This document shows positions 49,736 through 64,000 of a DNA stretch of 64,000 nt, in pieces; within the stretch, counting starts at the first letter, position 1, and the number at the start of each line of letters is the position of its first letter. The position numbers were made by a program, and so were the translations under genes. The notes under the pieces were generated by a model. It saw only the letters and a list, made by a program, of their open reading frames with translations. It searched no databases and had not been told where the DNA came from. Source of the DNA: Stictocephala bisonia (lineage: Eukaryota > Arthropoda > Insecta > Hemiptera > Membracidae); NCBI GenBank assembly GCA_035578905.1, contig JAQJVL010000047.1, positions 2,175,384-2,239,383 on the forward strand. Reading direction: 5' to 3'.

Positions 49736-49875
49736 ATCTGGGCTGTACAATTTTAATTATTCAAGAATCAAGATCTTTATTGTCACATAACGTTCAATAT
49801 ATGTTACAGTATAATATATAATTATATTTTGTAAAATGAACAGGTGACTTGTCACTAAACTAATAATAAACTAAA

Positions 49876-50182
49876 CTAATTATCTACATAAAAATGTACA
49901 TCAAAAATCAATGATTGATCATTCAAAAGTTCATTCACATCATAATACTCCTTGTTAACTAATAATTTTTTTTGCAACCATTTTGAATTTATTTAAATTT
50001 AATTCTTTAACACAAATTGGTAATTTGTTATTAAATTTTAAACCCATGTAATGAGGAGTATTTTCTAATAACGTTAGTCTGTGAATTGGGTACTGGAGTT
50101 GATTTCTAAATCTCGTGTTATAACTATGGGAGTGCTGCTCATCGGAAAATACATCAATTTCTTTATGTATAAAAACTAAGCA

Positions 50183-50242
<60 letters not shown>

Positions 50243-50432
50243 ACGAGGGAAGTGTTAAAATAATAATGTCTTTGAATATTGACTTACATGATTGGTTATA
50301 TTTCATAAATAACATACTTCGAATATAAGACTTTTGAATTCTAAAAACAGTTGAGATATCTGTTGAGTTTCCCCATAATTCTAAACCGTACTGTAGTAAA
50401 GAACAAAAACAAGCATGATAGACAATTAGCCT
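49876..50432 (-). pseudogene. LINE ORF2, C-terminal part beyond the hAT insertion
   Basis: Directly continues the RT frame after the 8-bp duplication: VYHACFCSLLQYGLELWGN, then FRIQKSYIRSML and LTLPSLYIYI, the last running into a (TA)n expansion. Past the repeat it resumes KCLVFIHKEI and HSYNTRFRNQLQYPIHRL, the usual RT C-terminal block. An eight-A run near 49970 shifts the end (KLLVNKEYYDVNELL); the natural stop is TAG at 49876-49878. Confidence 0.85.
50185..50240. repeat. (TA)n microsatellite inside the RT coding region
   Basis: 56 bp of TA, growing out of codons TAT ATA (Tyr-Ile) of the conserved LPSLYI motif of the LINE RT. Confidence 0.9.
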
Positions 50433-53400
50433 CAGGGGCGCAGCCAGGAATTAAGTCTGGGGGGGGTTTATGGGCCACTAATACCAGGAGGTCTGGGGGG
50501 GTATGGAATACCCCCCAGGAAAAGCGGGGTCCCCCCACCACCGGAAAATTTTTGACATAAATTTGTGAGTTTTACAGCTTTCTGAGAGCTATTTTTTAAT
50601 CCTTACACTCGTCAATAAGTAATAGTAAATTCATTTAAGTAAAACAGATTAAACTTAAAACTATTTTATAATAATATACAGAAATTTTAAAGAGCATCAA
50701 CACAAAATTATAGTATACTGCTAAATGATTTAATGTAATATGTAATTAGTAATTAAAAACACATAATAATTCTTTTGAAATAATGAAACCGTTATTAAAA
50801 ATCACTTAAACTTTTATTCATAAAGGTTACAAAGTAATATTAATTCTTCGAGATTTTTTGGCCAGCTCATGTAGAATTTCGTCCTCTGTTATTGGAATCC
50901 TTGGATGAATAAAGGCTGAAGCCAGCCTATTAAGCCGTTCCTCTGATGTTCTGTTCCTCAAGTATGTTTTCAGCAATTTTAGGGAGGAAAACGACCTCCC
51001 TGCTGTGCATGTCGTTACTGGTATTGTTGCTAATATAGAAAGAAGGGAATGGACTGTGGGAGTGAGACCAGCATTGCAGTGTTGCAAAGCCTCAACTGCA
51101 TTTTTTGGCTTCCTTTCCTTTACTATTTCCTGCCATATTATGACTTCCCCATTTATTCCTGTCGTTTCTAGATCATAACATTCCGCCACATTCTGAATAT
51201 CGTCTGAGATGTCACATTCTTTATTGGGTTGCTGTAATATTGTTTGGAATTTGGAAAGTATTTCACTGTGCGTTTCAAACTTTTGCCCAAACGCCTCAAC
51301 CGTGTTCTCAATAAATGGGATTAACAATGATCTCGTAAAGTAATCTTCAACAGAGTCAGCTGGTACATTGTCCCTTATTGTCTGCCGCCCTGTCATTCTT
51401 GGTTTGACTACAGGTATCTCGAGATCTGCACAGAGCTCACTTGCTTTCTGAAAAATCGGTGCAAAGGTTTGGATTGCCTCTTTTCTATCCTCAGCTAACT
51501 TATTTTTTACTGTCATAGCAGTCTTCATGGCAGCCGAAAGATCAAGGTTTTCTTTCTGTAGATACACACTCAGAGGTAATGTCAGTGAAAACACATACTC
51601 AATAGAAAAGAGGCTGATAAAAAAAAACACATTTCCCAATTGAACACTGGAGAAGCTGAGCGTCCATAGCTGTTCTTTTATCACTCCAGGTTTTGATTTC
51701 ATCCAGCGCTGCCAGTATAGGGCGGAGTAACTGCACAAAAGATTGAACAGAATCATGACGTTCAACCCATCGAGTTGGACACATTCTTTTCAGCTTTTCT
51801 TTCTTTCGTTGGTCATTGTCCATTTTTTCAATCTGTGCCGATAGAATTGTTTGCCTTTTTGGTGTGTTAAAAAATTTGTATGCACTCTCAATTGTACCCA
51901 TGCAGTTTCGTACTCCTTGAACAGAACGACCTTCTGAAATGCAAAGATTCAAGCAGTGTGAGCTACAATGAACATATAAGGCTTTAGGGTACTTTTCCTT
52001 TATAATAGCTAGAACACCATTCATATGGCCACTCATAACCCCTGCGCCATCGTAACCTTGACCTACCATAAATTGAGCTTGAAGACTTAGATCGTTTATA
52101 GTTTTGCATATTACGTCAGCCAAACCTTTTCCAGTCATGTCAGTGACAGGAATGAATTGTAAAAATTCTTCGTGAACTTTTTCATTTTCTACAAATCTAA
52201 CACAGAATGTCATTTGAGCTATAGTTCCTACATCTGTTGTTTCGTCAATAAGAATAGAAAACCACTGAGCATCCTTAACTTTCTCAACTAGCTTTGTCAA
52301 AATAATTGTGTTCATGGATGTGAATATCTCGTTCTGTATTTGCCAGCTTGTGTAAGTTGCATTTGCTCCTGCATTCTCCAAGTGATTTTGCAAGACAGAA
52401 TCACCAGATTGAACCCTGAATCTCAATAAGGATTTTAAATTTCCCTCTCCTCTTTCACTAGGCTCGTTGAGCAAAACAGGTCCAGAGTCCCTGTGTCCAC
52501 GGAATGATAACCCTTTTCTTGCAAGAAATATCGCTGTAGATATAATTGGCTTTAATTGCTCTCTGTTCTTGTTTACTTGTGCAGCATGACCTGCATCTAA
52601 CACCTTGTCAATACTCGGGATGGTTTCGTTTGTTGTAGCTACAAATGTGCCTGCTGTTTTAAGACAATCAGAATGATATTTTGCCTTTTCATGCTCCCGA
52701 AAAACTTCCCTGGCATCTTTCCAGTTTTTGAATGGAACCTTTACTAGTTTTCCAGGACACGATCTTTGTTTTCCAACAGTAGTACAAAATAAAGCACAGA
52801 ACTTACAATATGCTCCGTCTTGGGATGATGAATATACGAGCCAATCCCACTCTCCACACTATTTTGCAACAAACTTCAAGTTTCTTGGCCCAGACGACGG
52901 AAATGTGTAACTCAAGGTAGGTGTCCAAGGGTTTAGAAGAAGTTGTTTCCTAGTGCTGGCATCAATCTGAAATGAATAGAAAATAATTAAACACTGTAAT
53001 AACCCACACATGAGATGGATAACGACAACAAACCATTTTAAAAATGTGTTATTAATTTTTTCTTTATTAGGGGGCCTACTAAAAACTGTTGAAAGTATTT
53101 GTTTTAAATTGAGTGATTTGTAACACAAAATTTAATTTAAATTTGTTTTATAGTACATCACTTAACTCATACTCGTGGCACCTCCCCCTCACCACAAAAG
53201 TAGGGTGAGTTGTAAACCAGGCACAGATAAAATTTTTCTCATTGGTAGTGACTGCCCATTGCAATAGGTTTATCGCGTTTATTACTACTACTTCCATTAT
53301 TATATGGAGGGACCTGAAAAAGAATTAATATGCGCGCACAGGCATGCGAGCGTGATCAACCTTAGACAACAATTAAATTCATACACAATTGATTATTACC

Positions 53401-54273
53401 TGTTTTCCAATGTATAGACCAATATCGTATTCAAAAGTTGTTGTTGTAGAGCCCATTACTTGTACAACAGTGGGGGCTGATGAAATATCCTTTTCTATTC
53501 TTGGCTTTTTAGCTGTCACGGCACTAGTACTTGGCCCATCTTTGTCTTCCATGTTTTCCAAATCTGGAGTTTTGTTGTTCACATCTACAACAATATAATA
53601 CAAAGAAACTAATTTTAGGTTTAAAAATTATTTAATTTATCTCTAACGTGTGTAACTGTGAAACTACTGTAAAAACTGTGTAACAGTTTTATAATAATTT
53701 ATCACTAAGTACTCTTTTAACAGTAGTTCATACACAATGCGGCCAAATATAGGCTATAAGAAAAATGGAAGATTACGTTTACCTGAACACGTTAATGTTG
53801 AAGATTCCTTTGATGCAGAAGCATCCACACTCTGGCTGAAGAATCTCCTAATATCCATTTGTGCTTCTGCCTACTAGCAGCCACAGCACTTATGAGAATG
53901 ATAGTCACTCCCGAACAAGCCTAAACCTAAACATAGTGACACCTAAGTGGTGCAGATTCGTTCATCGTTCATGCGTTAGGTCAAACGGTCAAACCACCAC
54001 TGCGGCGCATGCACGCTCTGTCTCCTGCGATGCAGTGTTGCCAATCCGAAAAAACATTTTATACCTACGCACCTATACTCGCCACGCCACCCACCCAGCT
54101 GACTCAATTGTAAACTCTATTCTGTGAATAGTTTGACGTTTTGTTTGTGAGTCATCCGTCCCCATAATACTAGTTTCATAAATTTGACTCATTAAAATAT
54201 TTTTTCTAAAAAAAAAACGCTGAGCTCTGGGGGGGGTTTCAACTCCCAAAACCCCCCCCTCGCTGCGCCACTG
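50433..54273 (-). mobile_element. hAT transposon (3.84 kb) inserted in the LINE
   Basis: The ends are CAGGGGCGCAGCCAGGAA and, on the other strand, CAGTGGCGCAGCGAGGGG, typical hAT terminal repeats. ATTAGCCT stands on both sides (50425-50432 and 54274-54281) as an exact 8-bp target duplication. The interior carries one split transposase gene on the minus strand (50827-53858). G-runs near both ends produce short chance ORFs. Confidence 0.95.
50827..53858 (-). pseudogene. hAT transposase gene (TTF-type zinc finger, DUF4371-like), three exons
   Basis: Exon 1 53858-53783 (MDIRRFFSQSVDASASKESS; donor CAG|GTAAAC), exon 2 53584-53400 (acceptor TTGTAG; ends GKQ|GTAATA), exon 3 52966 down to 50827 (acceptor TTTCAG). 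Phases agree. Domains: a TTF-type/BED-like zinc-binding region (GEWDWLVYSSSQDGAYCKFC, later FREHEKAKYH), RNase-H-like core with LIDETTDVG, GQGYDGAGVMSG, VHCSSHCLNL and RMCPTRWVERHDSV, and the C-terminal dimerisation block TCTAGRSFSSLKLLKTYLRN. It resembles the ZMYM1/THAP0-related hAT group. Two lesions: TAG at 52859-52861 for Tyr in FVAKYCGEW, and a frameshift at a T9 run near 51625. The exons at 53783-52966 and the long open stretches imply recent activity. Confidence 0.88.
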
Positions 54274-54281
54274 ATTAGCCT

Positions 54282-56899
54282 AACATCCAAATCCACAGTT
54301 TCTCTCAAAATATACATCTGAAAGCATAATGAACTCAGCCTTTTATTTAGTTTTTCTATTAAAGGCTTCCAAGTAACATTTTTATCAATATGCATACCTA
54401 AAAACTGTACGGTATCTGTAATGTTTATAGTGCTGTTGTCAAAGATTATGCTTCTATCAAATGTATTTTTATTCTGTTGAGTTTGAAATTTTATTATTTC
54501 AGTTTTTTCTCCATTTAATTTAAATCCATTTATATCAAACCACTGTTTTATTTCTGGTAAAATCCTTCCTATTGCCTTCCTTAGCTCATTATTATTATTA
54601 CATCTCAATAGTATTGAGGTATCATCGGCATACAAAAAGATATTAGCATGATTAATGTTCAAGGGTAAGTCATTTATGTACAAGACAAACAACAAGGGTC
54701 CTAATATTGAGCCCTGGGGTACGCCATTTTTAATCTCCTTCCAATTTGATATGTATCTAACATTGTTTTTATTTATGACAACTCTCTGTTTTCTGTTTGA
54801 CAGGTATGATCTAAACCAATTCAATGCTCCGTCACAAATGCCATAAAATTTTACTTTTTCAATTAATAAATTATGGTTAACACAATCAAATGCCTTGGAC
54901 AAGTCACAGAAAATACCTGCGGTACTCTGTGACCTATCCAATCCCTCCGTAAAATGCTTGATCAATTCTGCTGCTGCATCTACGGCACTTCGTCCAGGTT
55001 GAAAACCATACTGATTTTTACATATCACATTTTCACGATTGAGGAATGCACTTAGCTGGTCATGAACTACTTTTTCAAAAATTTTTGATAGACTTGGTAA
55101 GACTGATACTGGTCTATAATTGTCAGGATTTTCCTTGTCACATTTTTTATAAATAGGTATCACACTTGCATATTTTAACTGATTTGGGAAAATTCCTTCA
55201 TTGAAATATTGATTAACTATTAAACTCAATGGCTTTGAAATGTACTGTACAGTATTTTTCAAAATATCATCCCACCCGACTGATTTTTTATTTTTTAGAT
55301 TTGTTATAACTTTACTTATTATACTTGGTGCCACAGTATTGGAACTCAAAAACATTGTTTAACACATCCCTTTTATCTAAACAATTTTTAGCAGCTTCTT
55401 CTGAAGTTAACCTGTTTGAATTACATCCTATATTAACAAACATTTTATTGAACTTACAAGCTATTTCATTTCCATTTAAAGTTTCTTTATCATCAAACTT
55501 AATTTTGTCAAACTCTACTTACAGTTTTAACACTTTTTTTTAATCCTAATTCATTTTTAACTATGTGCCATGTAGCCTTGCTTTTATTTTCCGAGTTTAA
55601 AATAAATTTACTATTTGCCATTCTTTTAGCAGCAACACAGATATTCCTAAAGACTTTTTTATAATTTTTTACATAAATTAAAAAGTTAATATCTTTAGAT
55701 GTTTTTGATAATCTATGGAGTTCTCTTTTCTTTCTACTCGAGATACGAATTCCTATTGTAACCCAACTCTTGTTTGAATATTTAGTCTGTTTTGAATTTT
55801 TTAATTTTATAGCTTTTTTGGGAAAGAATTGATTAAAATTTGATATGAACAATGAAAAAAATGAATCAAAGTTTTGTTGAGACGAGCTAGTATGATTGAA
55901 ATTCCAATCATCAATTCGTTTTATATATTGTGCAAAACAAAGTAAGCCTGATTTTGTAAAAAATCTTTTTCTCACTGACCTAATACATAATAGTTCATTA
56001 GTATTTTCATAAAGTGTCATTAATAAGGCTCTGTGGTCAGATATGCCAAGCTCTATATTAATGAGGTACCTTTGGCCAACATGCTTATTTGAGATTATGT
56101 TATCTATACAAGACTTAGAGTCATTAGCTATTCTTGTTGGTGAATAAAAGTTGATATTAAATCCACTTGTTTCTAATATATTCAATAACATATTTTTTAA
56201 TTTTGGATTTCGACTAGTTTTTTGACAATCAATGTTGAGATCGGAGGCAATATATATATTTTTTGTCTTGGATTATTTTTTTAATCTGCAGATTCATTTT
56301 TCCAGCTTGTTTAGAAATATATTCATATTAACTGTGACTGTATTATGGTATAAAGAAACCACTATGTGTGGGATTTGATTTGGATCAACAAACTCAATAC
56401 AACAAACCTCAAAACTAAGTCTTCATCTAAACTGCGAACTATATCCTTTCGTGACTTAAATTGTATATTATCTTTAATCAGAATACAGGAACCGTCCCGT
56501 ATAGATTCTTTCCGGCAATAAAAATCTGCTAATGTGTAATTTTGAATGTTGTTCTGTAGTAAACATAACTCGTTTTCTTTCAACCAGTGCTCATTCAAAC
56601 ATATAACATCTACATGTAATTTGGTTAGTAGTAGATTGAACTCTTCGACCTTTGCTAATAACTTTAAGCCCTGTATATTATAGTGCATCAACCATTTACA
56701 GTTGTTGTAAACTCTACTATTGACATCTGTTATATCATTCAAATAATTTTCTATGTTTAATGAGTGAGTATCATAATTCTCAATACATAAATCAAAACCA
56801 TTAACAATTGCACTATGGAAGTTAGAATTTTGAATAGCTGAATCATCTTTTGAATTTATTGTCAAAATTGCAGATACATGATCCTTGTCAGTAAAATCT
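54282..56899 (-). pseudogene. LINE ORF2, 5' part: APE endonuclease and reverse transcriptase
   Basis: Endonuclease pieces: HYNIQGLKLLAKVEEFNLLL with VDVICLNEHWL (metal-binding Glu) at 56865-56400, a frame change near 56398 (VDPNQIPHIVVVSLYHNT), then DLNIDC and GISDHRALL (SDH catalytic block) near 56030. The RT follows: DNYRPVSVLPSLSKIFEKV, GIFCDLSKAFDCVNH (motif A), NGVPQGSILGPLLFVLYIND (motif B), NIFLYADDTSIL (motif C, YADD), and GFKLNGEKTEII. The longest open stretch is 55355-54282; codons beyond 54273 in that frame belong to the hAT end. Frameshifts near 56398, 56283 and 55500 kill it. No ATG survives at the expected ORF2 start. Confidence 0.88.
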
Positions 56900-57020
56900 A
56901 GTTTAAACTATGATGAGACTGCACTTTATCACTATTACCACTATTACTCTGCTCTAGCGCCTCCTTGTAAGTGAGGTCGCCGGGTACCACTTTAACTTTT
57001 TCCCATTGGCTGGATGTTCT

Positions 57021-57695
57021 TTAAGTGGGTGGGATATTTACCAGTGATTCCCTTGAAGTTGTTGGGGATGCAGAGAGTCTCGCCTCAATCTCGATGGCCT
57101 CGCTTAGAAGACAATTACTTTTTTCACACTTCTTTATTTCTTCTCTCAAGGCTTCTATAAAATCAGAATGCGAAAGTCCACTTCTGAGCCTATTAAATGA
57201 TTGTTCATTGTTGGTCACAACTTGGATCTTAGCTTCAGTATTTTTTTCTTTTTTGGAATTTAACATGTTGTGGGCAAAATGCTGAATACTGATGAGATCC
57301 CTCACACAGCCCATAGGGGAGCACAGGAGTACCTTGAGAGCTCTTGACCTAAATTCTTGCGTTAAATTCATAAAAGCCCTATCATATTCATCCACTGAAG
57401 GTTTTCCCAGGTATTTGTCTTTTGTAAGAAGGCTAAAAACTGTAACACCATCCCCCATTTTCTGGCAAGCCAGATACCTACTTAAGCAGTGTGATGGTTT
57501 AGGTCTTCCAATTATCTTACGGAACGTGACAGCTACACCTGCACTCATATGCCTATTGTCAAAGAAATCTCTTGATATACAGTGAGCGAAAGCTGCCTCA
57601 GACTCATCCTTAAAACTTTCTATGACATCTCCCATGTCTGCTTCCACAACTTCAATATTATTGCTCTCTTTTGAAGGAAGAGTAAAGGTTTTCCC
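57021..57695 (-). pseudogene. Macro domain and ORF1 tail
   Basis: From the frame's linker (NCLGKTFTLPSKESNN) it enters FAHCISRDF, MSAGVAVTFRKIIGRP, SHCLSRYLACQKMGDGVTVF, LLTKDKYLGKPSVDEYDRAF and VLLCSPMGCVRDL. AHC..D..M.AG.A..F and the S.P..GC motif are the ADP-ribose-binding loops of macro domains. The Gly-rich loop is partly altered (MGCVRD for IGCGLD). An acidic/coiled C-terminal segment (EALREEIKKCEKSN, EIEARLS) follows, then a TAA at 57021 that looks secondary. The frame is offset from the esterase by an A-run slip. Confidence 0.8.
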
Positions 57696-58236
57696 TAAAC
57701 AATTTTTTTCTTCTTGGCTCGTTTTTTTCCCTTTATATTATATACAAAATCAACAATCATGCAACCAAGTTTTTTCTTTCCTTTATAGTTTAAGTGCAAT
57801 CCCTGTCTCGTAAAATGAAAGCGTTTGAAATAATCTAAATCAATCAAATTAACATTTGTCATTCTTAAAACAATTTCTCTTATATAGCTATTAATCAAGG
57901 CTAAGTCATAATGAACTGAGTTATCATGGTGTATATCATATCGAGGAGGGATTGTCGTTACACACACCGGCTCAAAGATTGCAGTTCAGTTTCCAGTTTT
58001 TTGTATATAGTTTGAGGAGATCCTTTTAAAATATCATTTGTTCCTGCAATTATTATTAGAGGACGTTGCAGAGATTTAGCAGCTTGATTATAGACTTGTT
58101 GGATATCAGCTCCAGATTTGACTACACCATCCACATGGATCCTTCCCTTACTGCAGGAACCAATAATCTCTGGCAGTCCTTTACCTTGGCTGTCAGCGTA
58201 CAACTCTACTTTTACTTTTTCAAAAGACCATTCATA
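57695..58236 (-). pseudogene. SGNH-hydrolase (esterase) domain
   Basis: Block I is YADSQGKGL (nucleophile Ser of the G/A-D-S motif), block III is IIIAGTNDIL (GTND with the oxyanion Asn) and block V is FTRQGLHLNYKGK (catalytic His). The N-terminal part (58203-57958) and the rest (57967-57695) are in different frames; the shift sits in the GTGTGTGT run at about 57960-57968, and loss of one GT pair explains it. Such esterase domains are known in ORF1 of CR1-like LINEs, which supports assignment of the whole string to the element. Confidence 0.85.
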
Positions 58237-58739
58237 CTTGCCTCTTTGATGTTATACTCGTGAACATGATTTTTCACTTTTTTACCTATATTGTTAGTTT
58301 TATTTACATTCTTTTCATTAGCTTCATTTGTTTGCTGTGACTCCTGCTTTTCAGACAGTATATGAAAGCTATTTGATGTTGGGATGGTAGGTGTTCTTGT
58401 AGTTAATATTTTCTGCGTAGGTTTACTTTTATAGCTTTTGGACCTTTTATCAAATTGCCATACGCCTTGTGGTTGGTTTTCTTTCACACGTTTTGTATTT
58501 GTTCTTTTTACATTATTATCACCTACTTGAACTCGAGGTACAGTAGGACGAGATTTGAAGTTCTTAAACATCATGTCTGATACAGTCTGAGAATTTATCT
58601 GTAAATATGGATAGTTGTGCCACTGAAGTGCCAATTGAGACCTCTTTGTTAAGATGTCAGAGTGACGGATTGTGCATACCAATTTTCCATCCATTGAGTC
58701 CAAAAGTCCACAATCTATCAGTTGTAAAAGAATTTCCAT
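58212..58739 (-). pseudogene. ORF1 middle: end of C48 domain and basic linker
   Basis: It continues the C48 frame. The first ~25 residues complete the protease fold (FMEILLQLIDCGLL). The remainder is low-complexity, rich in Lys/Asn/Gln/Thr/Ser (KRTNTKRVKENQ, KRSKSYKSKPTQK), likely a disordered, possibly RNA-binding linker. The frame ends a few codons before the esterase, which continues in another frame with FEKVKVELYADSQGKG. Confidence 0.7.
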
Positions 58740-59384
58740 GAAAATGGTTCAGTAAATCCCAAAATCAACAGTATTAGGCTGTTGAGGAACCTCGATAGAT
58801 TGGAGAGGGATATCATTTCCCACACCTAGGTGTTTTTGAGCCTTTTTAGCAACCCATTGAGCATGCACTAGATTGTAAGTGCCACATGAGTCAAAATATA
58901 AAAATGCATGCAGGTTTCTTACAAACACCATAAGGCTCCAGTGGGACCCTTCTGTTTTATACAAGTATTGTGTGTCTTCTGGATCATTTTCTTGCCCATC
59001 TTGCTTCAGATCATGAATTGGGAAAAAGATATAGTTTCTGTTAAATAATTCTAGTGGCTCGAGAAGATGATTATAATCATTTAGGCTTTTGACAGCGTGA
59101 GTTACTACCGGATTCATAAGTAAAATTTTTTTATCAGATTGTTCAACTAAATTCGTAAGGGTATCATAATACAACCGGATAGTGTCATCGGTTACCCATT
59201 TGTTTTCTAGTAGAGAAAGACTAATTGAAAATCTCTTATCGGTATTGGTGCTCTTTCTGCTTTCAGGCTTTTTAACTTTGTCCATATCACTTAAACTTGT
59301 GATAGTCTCTGTCTGTACAGATTTAGTAAGTGGAGATTTATTAGATAGCTTTTGGTGGAGTAATGGTGTGTTTGAAGAAAACAT
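58640..59384 (-). pseudogene. Ulp1/SENP-like (C48) cysteine-protease domain, catalytic Cys lost
   Basis: After a ~55-residue Lys/Ser-rich linker the text runs WVTDDTIRLYYDTL, ILLMNPVVTHAVK, YIFFPIHD, GSHWSLMVFVR (catalytic His), FLYFDSCGTYN (catalytic Asp), VPQQPNTVD (oxyanion Gln), then FGIY and TGA. In C48 peptidases the end is DCGIYV: here the nucleophile codon is TTT (58761-58763) and the stop (58749-58751) falls three codons later. The frame then goes on as TIFMEILLQLIDCG, the normal final helix. The nearest familiar relative is SENP8/NEDP1 by the WL.DD and HWSL patterns. Function in a live copy: processing ubiquitin-like proteins. Confidence 0.85.
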
Positions 59385-59441
59385 TTTATTAATACCAGTT
59401 AAGATTGTTTTTTTGTTTATTTGATGGGGTTTTCTGATGAA

Positions 59442-59669
59442 CTAATGGTGTGGTTTACATTCACTATAATAGACAATATCAGTTTTATTAACGAAAGCAG
59501 TTTCATTTGTTGAAAAAAAGGTAACTTCATACTTTGTTACATTTTTGTAAGTTTCCTCATCAATGCCAGTTATTTTTCCAGGCCAATAGGGAAATCCTCT
59601 AACTTTGGCAAAAATTAAATCATTGATTTTTATGTCACTTTTAGAAATATTTCTTAATGAAGTACTCAT
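59442..59669 (-). pseudogene. PWWP domain at ORF1 N-terminus
   Basis: 75 codons: MSTSLRN, then INDLIFAKVRGFPYWPGKIT, and downstream YEVTFFSTNETAFV. The FAKVRGFPYWPGKI string is the PWWP hallmark (here YWP in the P-W-W-P position), and the following beta-strands with FF.T.E are as in HDGF/DNMT3-type PWWP domains that bind methylated nucleosomal histone H3. The TAG after PHH is followed in the same frame by 19 sense codons reaching the next Met, so the domain was probably fused to the protease. Confidence 0.85.
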
Positions 59670-59700
59670 TGTGGTAGTAATATTTCACAATTAAATCCAG

Positions 59701-60773
59701 TTTATCTTTAAAGCCGATAATTCAAAATGTGGGAAATATGTTATTACAACGTCTCTAATGTTATAGTATGTCTCTAATACTATAATGATTTAGTTTAAGC
59801 TCAGTGTCAAAATAGTTAATGGAGCTGATTATAAGTTGGTCATATATTAATGTAATTATATGACAATATCAAATAACTGTATCTGTCAACTTTAAGTAGG
59901 AGTTAAAATTCTTCACATTTAAATTCTTAAAAATTAATTTATTTTTTATTTTAAACTAATTAGTTAATAGAAAAATCCAAACGTCAGATATAAATTGTAA
60001 ATATCCAATGTCCAAATAAGTAGTGTATTAAAATATCTGATCCTATTTCCAGGTAGAAAGATAACAATGTTACTCTTCTCTTATCAGTTTGCTTGTACAG
60101 TTGCCAAATCCAATAGTATTTACAACTATCAATCTTCCACCTTGCCAGTAATAAAAGGGTTACATTCTTCGTCTACCTCATCTGCTTTGTAATTTTAGTT
60201 CAAGTCAACATTTCTACAGTTTCTTGATTAGTGAATTATTTGTAATATTCATCTACTACTTTGCGCTTCATCATTTTTTAACATACAGGAACTGTTCTTG
60301 TTATTTCAGTTAAACTTTCAAAACTTTAAGAATTGTTTCCTTTAAGGCCATCGAATATTTTTCTCCAGTATTGTTTCAAAGCCTCTGATTACACATTTTC
60401 TGAAGCCTGCACACACCATTAAATTACATGTTTCATATTTACAGTTTTCAGAGTTTTTTTCATGGTTTTGTTGTTATCATTATATTGCTTGATGGTACTT
60501 AACAATAGCCCACGGTAGTGTCTCTAATACACTCTGGCCTAGTAGTGGTTGAATGAGATTGGTTACATTTGCAAGAAGGAAATGGTTTATATGTGCATTT
60601 GGTGCCAAAGGAACGGTTATTCGTTATTTTTGTATTTTTGTCTGGAGCAGATTATTCCTCTGATGGAGCTTGTAATATTTTAGGCAAATTTTTGAGATTA
60701 ACTCCTGCCTTAATGCTATTGCGAATGTGGTCATAATTGAAGACCTTGGTTTAATCTTCAAAGTCTGTTTTAA
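59701..60773. other. AT-rich DNA upstream of the LINE, with a weak coding remnant
   Basis: 59701-60500 shows nothing. Read on the minus strand, 60760-60530 contains VFNYDHIRNSIKAGVNLKNL, PKILQAPSEE and, after a stop, FGTKCTYKPFPSCKCNQSHS. This is protein-like composition with regular Cys spacing but no family I recognise. Likely a decayed mobile-element ORF. Confidence 0.35.
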
Positions 60774-62590: not shown

Positions 62591-62735
62591 TTCAATCACT
62601 TATATATAATTATTTTTAAATGACGGTTTTCAGTTGCGCTTGAAAATTGGCAATCGAAAAAGATGACAATGAAATTAAATGTAGTTGTACGTGATGTGAT
62701 GTCATGTTTTTCACAGTTCATGTGTCAAAGACGAC

Positions 62736-63538
62736 GTGGAGAGTAAGGAAACAAGATCGGCGTGGAAATGCAAGGATTGTAAACAAACCACATCCTCTCA
62801 GGCCAGTTTCAAATCAAGTTCTTCTTCAAGTACATTCATCACAAAAGAGTTTATCCTTCAAATGTTTGAAGATTTGAAAATAGAGGTGTTTGGGGAGTTA
62901 AAAAATTTCCAAAAGGAAATAATCGAGTTGAAAGTTTTGATGCAGTTATTATCAGATGAAGTTGAAGAAATGAGAACCGAGTTTGTGGCAATCAAGAAAG
63001 AAAATCATGACCTGCATGTTGCATCCATGTCGATGGGCAAGGACGTTGAAAAGCTGAGAGACAGAATGCAAACCCTCGAGCTGTATACCAGATGCAACAA
63101 TGTCCAGATCAGTAGGTTGCCTACTACACCTGGAGAAAAAAATTGTAGAAATCGTCAAGGACGTGAGTACAGCCTTGGGGAGTCTCAATAGCTGAGGTCA
63201 ACAATACATTGAGTTCCAAGTTTAAGAGAGACAGCATTCCAGCTATCATCGTCCAGTTTCAGCATAGGACAACAAGGGATTCATGGATCAGCAGCTTAAG
63301 AAAAAAGAAATCGATGACTTCCAAAGAAATAAATCCTCCTTATTCCTTTTAACAGACTGTTTGTGAACAAGTACCTTTCACCAGAAAATAAGCTCTTCTT
63401 AGCTAGATTGAAGAGGAAATGCCAAGACATATGTTACAAGTTTGCTTGGTTCCGGGATGGGAAATTTTTTGCTCGAAAATCCGAAGGTGAGAAAGTTCCG
63501 AAAATTAATAGTGTAAATGACATTGAACAACTCAAGTA
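62736..63538 (+). pseudogene. LINE ORF1p (nucleic-acid chaperone type)
   Basis: The N-terminus retains SAWKCKDCK, the last half of a PHD finger; the earlier Cys pairs lie upstream out of frame. A Ser-rich linker leads to a coiled coil (VFGELKNFQKEIIELKVLMQ to EKLRDRMQTLELYTRCNNVQ). The RRM-like/C-terminal domain continues in changed frames as NVQISRLPTTPGE, then LFVNKYLSPENKLFL and YKFAWFRDGKFFARKSEG, the standard ending of jockey/CR1 ORF1 proteins. A frameshift near 63140 and others between 63180 and 63350 break it. ORF1p would coat the element RNA. The first in-frame codon is GTG; the real start is lost upstream. Confidence 0.8.
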
Positions 63539-63539
63539 A

Positions 63540-63957
63540 ATATGAATAATGTAGATCATCACTAAGCATTTATATAATTTTTATCCCTATTTAATTCCAT
63601 TAATTTGTTTTTAAGAACAAAAAATACATTTCATTGTTTTATCTGAAGTATGGATTAGTAATGATGAAGTAAAGCTATTTAAAATTCCAGATAACAAAAT
63701 ATTTTGTAAATATAATGATAATTATAGATCCGGTGGAGTAATTTGTTTTGTTGATAAGATATTTGTGTACTTCAGTTAAACACCTTTAATATTTTGTCTC
63801 CTGACACATTACTTTTAGACGTACGTTATAAAAATGCTTATTTTAAATTGTTTTGCATTTATAGATAACAGTCATTTTCTGAAAATACTTTTATTTATGA
63901 GTTAGAAAATATTTTATATCAATTTAATAATAATACTATTTTAATAGGTGATATTAA
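63540..63957 (+). pseudogene. LINE ORF2 start: APE endonuclease fragment
   Basis: Scrambled by shifts but readable: FIVLSEVWISNDEV (metal-binding Glu region), KYNDNYRSGGVICFVDK, and ILIGDIN at 63944-63957 where the GDxN block of APE endonucleases begins. The insertion at 63958 separates it from the remainder. Confidence 0.65.
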
Positions 63958-64000
63958 TACAGTAGAATCTTGATTATTCGAGCCCCGATTAACCCAGCCT
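63958..64000. mobile_element. pogo/Tigger-like element, left end (runs off window)
   Basis: TACAGTAGAATCTTGATTAT followed by CGAGCCCCGATTA matches the end of the element at 47264 (TACAGTAGAATTCCAATTAT, then CGAATCCCCGATTA). A TA target is present. Confidence 0.65.

Follow-up and report, generated by a model that had tools for sequence, protein, structure and literature searches.

A broken LINE of Stictocephala bisonia and its relatives, with PWWP, C48-type protease, SGNH and macro domains in ORF1

Structure of the element

The 64,000-nucleotide stretch of contig JAQJVL010000047.1 from Stictocephala bisonia (Membracidae) analyzed here, referred to below as the window, carries on its minus strand a broken copy of a long interspersed element (LINE). 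In the remnant of its first open reading frame (ORF1), a PWWP domain is followed by a C48-type protease domain, a linker, an SGNH domain and a macro domain, and then directly by an APE-type endonuclease (EN) and a reverse transcriptase (RT). A sequence-only reading had assigned these four domains to a LINE ORF1, which is borne out by other copies in which an EN-RT ORF2 succeeds a four-domain ORF1. The parts of the element are as follows.

49761..60121 (−): whole LINE copy, nested hAT-like transposon included; aligned with a second copy, L029+L030 (contig C1351)
59670..60121 (−): 5′ untranslated region; about 133 extra bases relative to L029 near 59723-59855
56898..59669 (−): ORF1 remnant; ATG at 59669, last stop 56898-56900
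59442..59669 (−): PWWP domain, HDGF/LEDGF type; stop-terminated, 92 bases of L029 absent here
58716..59222 (−): C48-type protease domain, SENP8/DEN1-like; His, Asp and Gln kept, catalytic Cys replaced by Phe, stop at about 58749
57734..58242 (−): SGNH/esterase-like domain in two frames, 58242-57967 and 57973-57734
57123..57656 (−): macro domain, TARG1/OARD1-like; Lys and Asp dyad kept
56946..56999 (−): conserved short ORF1 tail, KVKVVPGDLTYKEALEQS, recognized by eye; similar in P0004, P0005, L025, L027 and L031
55508..56907 (−): N-terminal part of ORF2, APE-type EN, broken; PF03372 E 9.5e-5 plus a weak second piece, same region in L029
54282..55358 (−): RT of ORF2 as far as the insertion; PF00078 E 8.3e-38
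50433..54273 (−): nested hAT-like DNA transposon; 8-base duplication ATTAGCCT, imperfect terminal inverted repeats, transposase-like text
49761..50432 (−): remainder of ORF2 and LINE 3′ end, terminating in AATAAAGATCTTGATTCTTGA

The second copy (L029 and the adjoining L030) matches the window from about 60121 to 49761, with large blocks 92-98% identical and unrelated flanks. Both copies start with AAATACTATTGG and end with AATAAAGATCTTGATTCTTGA, the ends being exact to a few bases, which gives a discrete insertion unit with a constant 3′ end. Since both ends are common to the two copies and the flanks are unrelated, ORF1, EN and RT form one insertion unit. Inspection by eye showed no clear target-site duplication. 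Relatives align along the window ORF1 in frames −3, −2, −1 and −3, with in-frame stops at about 59442, 58749 and 57021. The catalytic protease Cys, which is Phe in the window, lies in a DCGIY motif in L029, where it is the GSHW stretch that is missing. The window EN falls below the Pfam cut-off (PF03372, 22.7 bits versus 24.5). Separately, the ORF1 tails of P0004, P0005, L025, L027 and L031 resemble VVPGDLTYSEALKQS.

Relatives in the genome and in the protein database

We searched the genome of the window (1.68 Gb, 11105 contigs) with the PWWP and with the macro domain, scoring the best 150 of 949 first-look PWWP candidates and the best 150 of 2274 macro candidates. Twenty of the 150 PWWP places and 4 of the 133 macro places without a listed PWWP were fetched, both sets having been chosen for long open frames, so that no fraction reported here describes a random sample. 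The 2274 first-look macro candidates, 150 of them scored, suggest that this genome may contain a very large group of such elements. Of the 20 fetched PWWP places, 19 are followed by RT on the same strand; at the other, L009, no domain query matched. At 17 of the 150 scored macro places, a listed PWWP precedes the macro match on the same strand by no more than 4.5 kb, with no wrong arrangements.

All four domains stand in one uninterrupted ORF1 in L020 (960 amino acids, aa), L024 (940 aa), L025 (966 aa, with residues at the protease Gln lost) and L027 (965 aa), each followed by RT in the same orientation. An uninterrupted ORF2 was found in L020 (945 aa), L027 (892 aa), L026 (943 aa), L011/L012 (961 aa), L021 (967 aa) and L028 (947 aa). 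Both PF00078 and PF03372 exceed the cut-off in ORF2 of L020 and L026, identifying them as APE-type LINEs; in the 892-aa ORF2 of L027, Pfam matched the RT model and no EN model. Some frames cross from the ORF1 domains into EN, namely one of 1272 aa in L022 and an open frame of 1675 residues in L034 that includes the macro match. Seven places with both PWWP and macro matches, L020 among them, share an open frame of 980 residues, and this equality points to recent spread.

Other RT-linked elements hold subsets of the domains. PWWP, protease and SGNH occur together in L026, L018 and L011/L012, the SGNH domain of L011/L012 being of another sort that Pfam recognizes; PWWP, SGNH and macro in L016, L022 and L023; PWWP and SGNH in L010, L017 and L021, the last scored as macro-less with a terminal remnant that starts like a macro domain; and PWWP alone among the four in L013, L014, L015, L019 and L028. 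The macro places differ at the front end, with the SGNH and macro domains in all four recognized mostly by eye. L031 has an MBD ahead of protease, SGNH and macro; L033 has protease, SGNH and macro; L034 has the same three domains continuing into EN; and L032 has macro, protease and then the start of SGNH at the end of the stretch. We also note that the 1077-residue frame of L032 (L032:1-3231) has a long N-terminal region without a Pfam match ahead of these domains.

The protein database yielded 21 related proteins, 11 of them from Homalodisca vitripennis. P0010 and P0012 are uninterrupted four-domain proteins, whereas P0011 carries an MBD (E 9e-17), P0020 and P0021 carry FLYWCH over the cut-off in front of the order macro, protease, SGNH, and P0008 has a weak PHD match (E 0.011). 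The macro motif was not found in P0001-P0003 or P0007. A search for ORF1-ORF2 fusion proteins in the database found none, its 7 matches (941-1076 aa) all being already among the relatives, and an IMG/VR scan with P0004 gave no relative.

Modularity and history of the domain set

The domain set is modular: the first domain is PWWP, MBD or FLYWCH, and the protease and macro domain come and go. Between the window and L027, identity is 68% in PWWP, 63% in the protease, 59% in SGNH, 45% in macro and 43% in RT; between the window and L022 it is 47% in both RT and macro, and 28% in SGNH.

The RT tree combined own-genome copies with four database matches (the RT protein search being limited to the best 120 of 3330 matches); some of its rows, above all L029, were assembled from fragments, and its deepest fork is weakly supported. 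Four-domain elements fall into three groups of this tree, with L020 and L024 (not sisters) in a group of six, L025 and L027 in a group of seven, and the window with L029. Four-domain ORF1s thus occur on at least three RT lineages, and the tree requires a minimum of 5 changes in the presence of the macro domain and of 6 in that of the protease.

Groupings were compared by approximately unbiased (AU) tests, the macro-tree groups having been fixed before the tree was seen and the RT-tree groups named afterwards. The macro data reject a clade of window and L029 with L025 and L027 (p-AU 0.0095), and one of window and L029 with L022 (p-AU 0.031). The RT data reject the union of the window group (window, L029, P0022 and P0023, the last two placed there by RT alone) with L025 and L027 (p-AU 9e-77), and that of these two groups jointly with L020 and L024 (p-AU 0.0002). 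Judging by the tests on both trees, RT and the parts of ORF1 appear to have had different histories.

Domain assignments

The closest solved relatives of the PWWP domain are HDGF and LEDGF, for both the window (E 6.2e-14 and 4.7e-12, respectively) and L020. The likeness to these proteins is one of sequence; the difference is that the mobile element itself, rather than a host tether, carries the domain.

Both in sequence and in predicted fold, the protease most resembles SENP8/DEN1, with Ulp1 and the other SENPs more distant. A profile search against the PDB gave SENP8 at 4.2e-36, followed by a bacterial effector and NopD at about 2e-23, and by Ulp1 and SENP1 at 6.4e-11, with the macro-domain protein OARD1 at 4.8e-11; L020 alone gave SENP8 at 1.2e-23 and SENP1 at 5.8e-7. 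The model of P0010 has a mean predicted local distance difference test score (pLDDT) of 63.8, with domains mostly at 70-92, and Foldseek matched it to DEN1 (2.9e-11), Ulp1 (5.4e-8), TARG1 (2.4e-7), GDSL (5.2e-6) and the HDGF PWWP (3.0e-5). Of 32 sequences that include the protease domain, 31 have the catalytic Cys and 29 the His, the His misses being L029 (deletion) and P0007 and L034 (sequences that start after the His); in these and the other active-site counts, several rows are near-copies of one another. The element protease shares sequence, predicted fold and the active-site His, Asp, Gln and Cys with SENP8/DEN1/NEDP1, and differs in being built into a multi-domain retrotransposon protein. 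Since SENP8/DEN1 is nearest, NEDD8 appears a likelier target than the SUMO that the sequence-only reading had in mind.

For the macro domain, TARG1 is the closest match in sequence as well as in predicted fold. In a motif scan that included L031-L034, Lys and Asp 41 residues apart were present in 28 of 28 complete domains (P0006 and P0014 are incomplete). According to PMC6397177, TARG1 Lys84 acts as the nucleophile and Asp125 completes hydrolysis, and by these residue numbers the spacing in human TARG1 is equal. TARG1 also takes ADP-ribose off thymidine in DNA, as stated in PMC8501950. The elements differ from TARG1/OARD1 in loop 3, which reads GCx(R/H)D instead of GCGLD, and in the fusion of the domain to others. 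Of the two functions first offered, binding or removing ADP-ribose, retention of the TARG1 dyad makes an eraser more probable than a mere reader. Ubiquitin matches of the macro-domain search were rejected as summed weak repeats.

The SGNH domain keeps the Ser, Asn and His motifs, in line with a type IV esterase, and GDSL models exceed the cut-off in L011, L031, P0017 and P0019. As a side observation, the SGNH parts of P0001, P0007, P0011, P0014 and L031 match Pfam OSK, the domain of Oskar, below the cut-off (E 2.5e-4 to 1.7e-3).

Neighboring features in the window

The hAT-like transposon, about 3.8 kb long, splits the LINE and is flanked by the ATTAGCCT duplication at 50425-50432 and 54274-54281; its minus strand holds stop-to-stop frames of 419 and 320 residues. 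We presume the hAT-like affiliation from the duplication, the inverted repeats and the transposase-like text, without a family search. At 62700-64000, the plus strand shows the apparent start of a further LINE in the opposite orientation, with coiled-coil ORF1 text and then endonuclease-like text; this element is cut by the window end, and Pfam reported no family over the cut-off in it.

Relation to known elements

The type IV esterase ORF1 of CR1/L2 LINEs (PMC4120745; ZfL2-1, PMC3905857) likewise has an SGNH/esterase domain and lies upstream of APE-type EN and RT, and there, as here, ORF1 types are common to several RT lineages (PMC4120745). Beyond type IV, the present elements add an HDGF/LEDGF-like PWWP or other reader, a SENP8-like protease and a TARG1-like macro domain; the main text of PMC4120745 contains none of the terms 'ulp', 'macro', 'pwwp' and 'protease'. 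The nematode NeSL and Utopia-1_TSP elements are likewise of LINE type with a C48-like (Ulp1-like) cysteine protease near the N terminus. As described in PMC4640811, these encode one protein with a restriction-like endonuclease, whereas the present elements mostly have two ORFs, an APE-type EN, a SENP8-like protease and further domains. Among the matches listed in open-licence PubMed Central (titles and abstract openings), we found no description of a LINE ORF1 with a PWWP, SENP8-like protease or macro domain. Esterase ORF1s and nematode elements with an Ulp1-like protease are already known, and the novelty of the present set is provisional, as subscription journals, preprints and Repbase lay outside the search.

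Interpretation

On balance, we lean towards reading the window copy as a decayed APE-type LINE whose ORF1 would be a particle protein that brings along a chromatin reader and erasers of modifications. Several unbroken elements have the four-domain ORF upstream of EN-RT with the predicted active-site residues conserved; sequence and modeled folds together suggest an element that selects its own site in chromatin and removes host marks at that site.

Several observations weigh against this reading. EN-RT does occur without the full domain set, which is in part the outcome that the sequence-only reading had named as refuting it: 15 of the 19 RT-linked elements lack at least one of the four domains and 4 keep all, so that LINEs of this kind do not generally need the protease and macro domains. 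The common element ends and the frames crossing from ORF1 into EN lead us to attribute this to modularity and not to chance neighborhood. Pfam reported no RNA-binding domain in the ORF1s scanned, which among the RT-linked elements are those of all but L012, L019 and L025. SGNH hydrolases usually have an Asp three residues ahead of the His; here this Asp is present in only 2 of 38 sequences (L011 and L012), the position being otherwise occupied by His (19), Gln (11), Arg (3), Ala (1), Lys (1) or Glu (1). The TARG1 pattern TKx(30,35)Px[IL]GxGxD, as given in PMC6397177, matches 0 of 46 sequences, 28 of them with a complete macro domain. Finally, both observed copies of the window family (window and L029) are broken.

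The changed TARG1 loop 3 and the mostly missing SGNH Asp would also fit fossil enzymes, that is, domains serving as binding or structural modules that hold ORF1 particles together or bind ubiquitin-like proteins or ADP-ribose without catalysis. The slow turnover of the ZfL2-1 esterase, noted in PMC3905857, agrees with such a role. We consider this doubtful, given that the protease Cys and the macro dyad are retained almost without exception (31/32 and 28/28) in families whose domains are mostly 30-63% identical to those of the window. The protease might act on SUMO or ubiquitin instead of NEDD8 and counter SUMO-dependent silencing, as the sequence-only reading proposed. In keeping with this, its Pfam family is named for Ulp1, and two C48 proteases of bacteria, NopD and a type III effector, rank second in the profile search. 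SENP8 ranked first in the PDB profile, L020-alone and Foldseek searches, and although similarity is no proof of substrate, we regard a SUMO or ubiquitin target as rather unlikely.

A retroposed or host PWWP/C48/macro gene that came to lie beside a LINE by chance could be entertained for the broken window copy taken singly, and L009, the 1 of 20 PWWP places without a LINE domain, is perhaps a host gene. A PWWP/C48 part standing alone as a host gene, the other outcome that the sequence-only reading had named as refuting it, was not seen, though it was not searched for as such. The same-strand RT downstream of 19 of 20 PWWP places, the common ends of two copies and the frames running from ORF1 into EN make chance neighborhood extremely improbable, and we reject a host-gene or chance origin on the RT linkage and the common ends.

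For the preferred reading of a particle protein with reader and erasers, a mechanism can be proposed. LEDGF tethers lentiviral integrase to H3K36-methylated chromatin; in a similar manner, the PWWP domain may dock the ribonucleoprotein (RNP) on H3K36-methylated nucleosomes. The protease would strip a host target of NEDD8, for example a cullin ubiquitin ligase by which the RNP would otherwise be destroyed, and the macro domain would clear ADP-ribose placed by PARPs on proteins or DNA at the nick of target-primed reverse transcription. Left in place, both modifications might hinder reverse transcription at the target. The SGNH domain may help to assemble the RNP or to bind membranes, the role suggested for ZfL2-1. 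Such an ORF1 might also counter silencing, as the sequence-only reading proposed.

More tentatively, it is possible that ORF1 of a large group of LINEs in this lineage constitutes a self-guided chromatin toolkit. An exchangeable reader (PWWP, MBD or FLYWCH) would pick the chromatin, and the host would be disarmed there by a NEDD8 protease together with an eraser of ADP-ribose, whose substrate at the priming nick may be ADP-ribosylated DNA itself. In the usual view, LINEs depend on host factors for target choice and are passive in evading silencing. The elements described here appear to bear a LEDGF-like tether together with two erasers of the kinds with which cells control ubiquitin ligases and repair DNA. 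Since single domains distinguish relatives within one genome, reader-based target choice and the restriction of LINEs by NEDD8 and ADP-ribose are directly testable. If the proposal is true, reader swapping would split the genome among competing element families.

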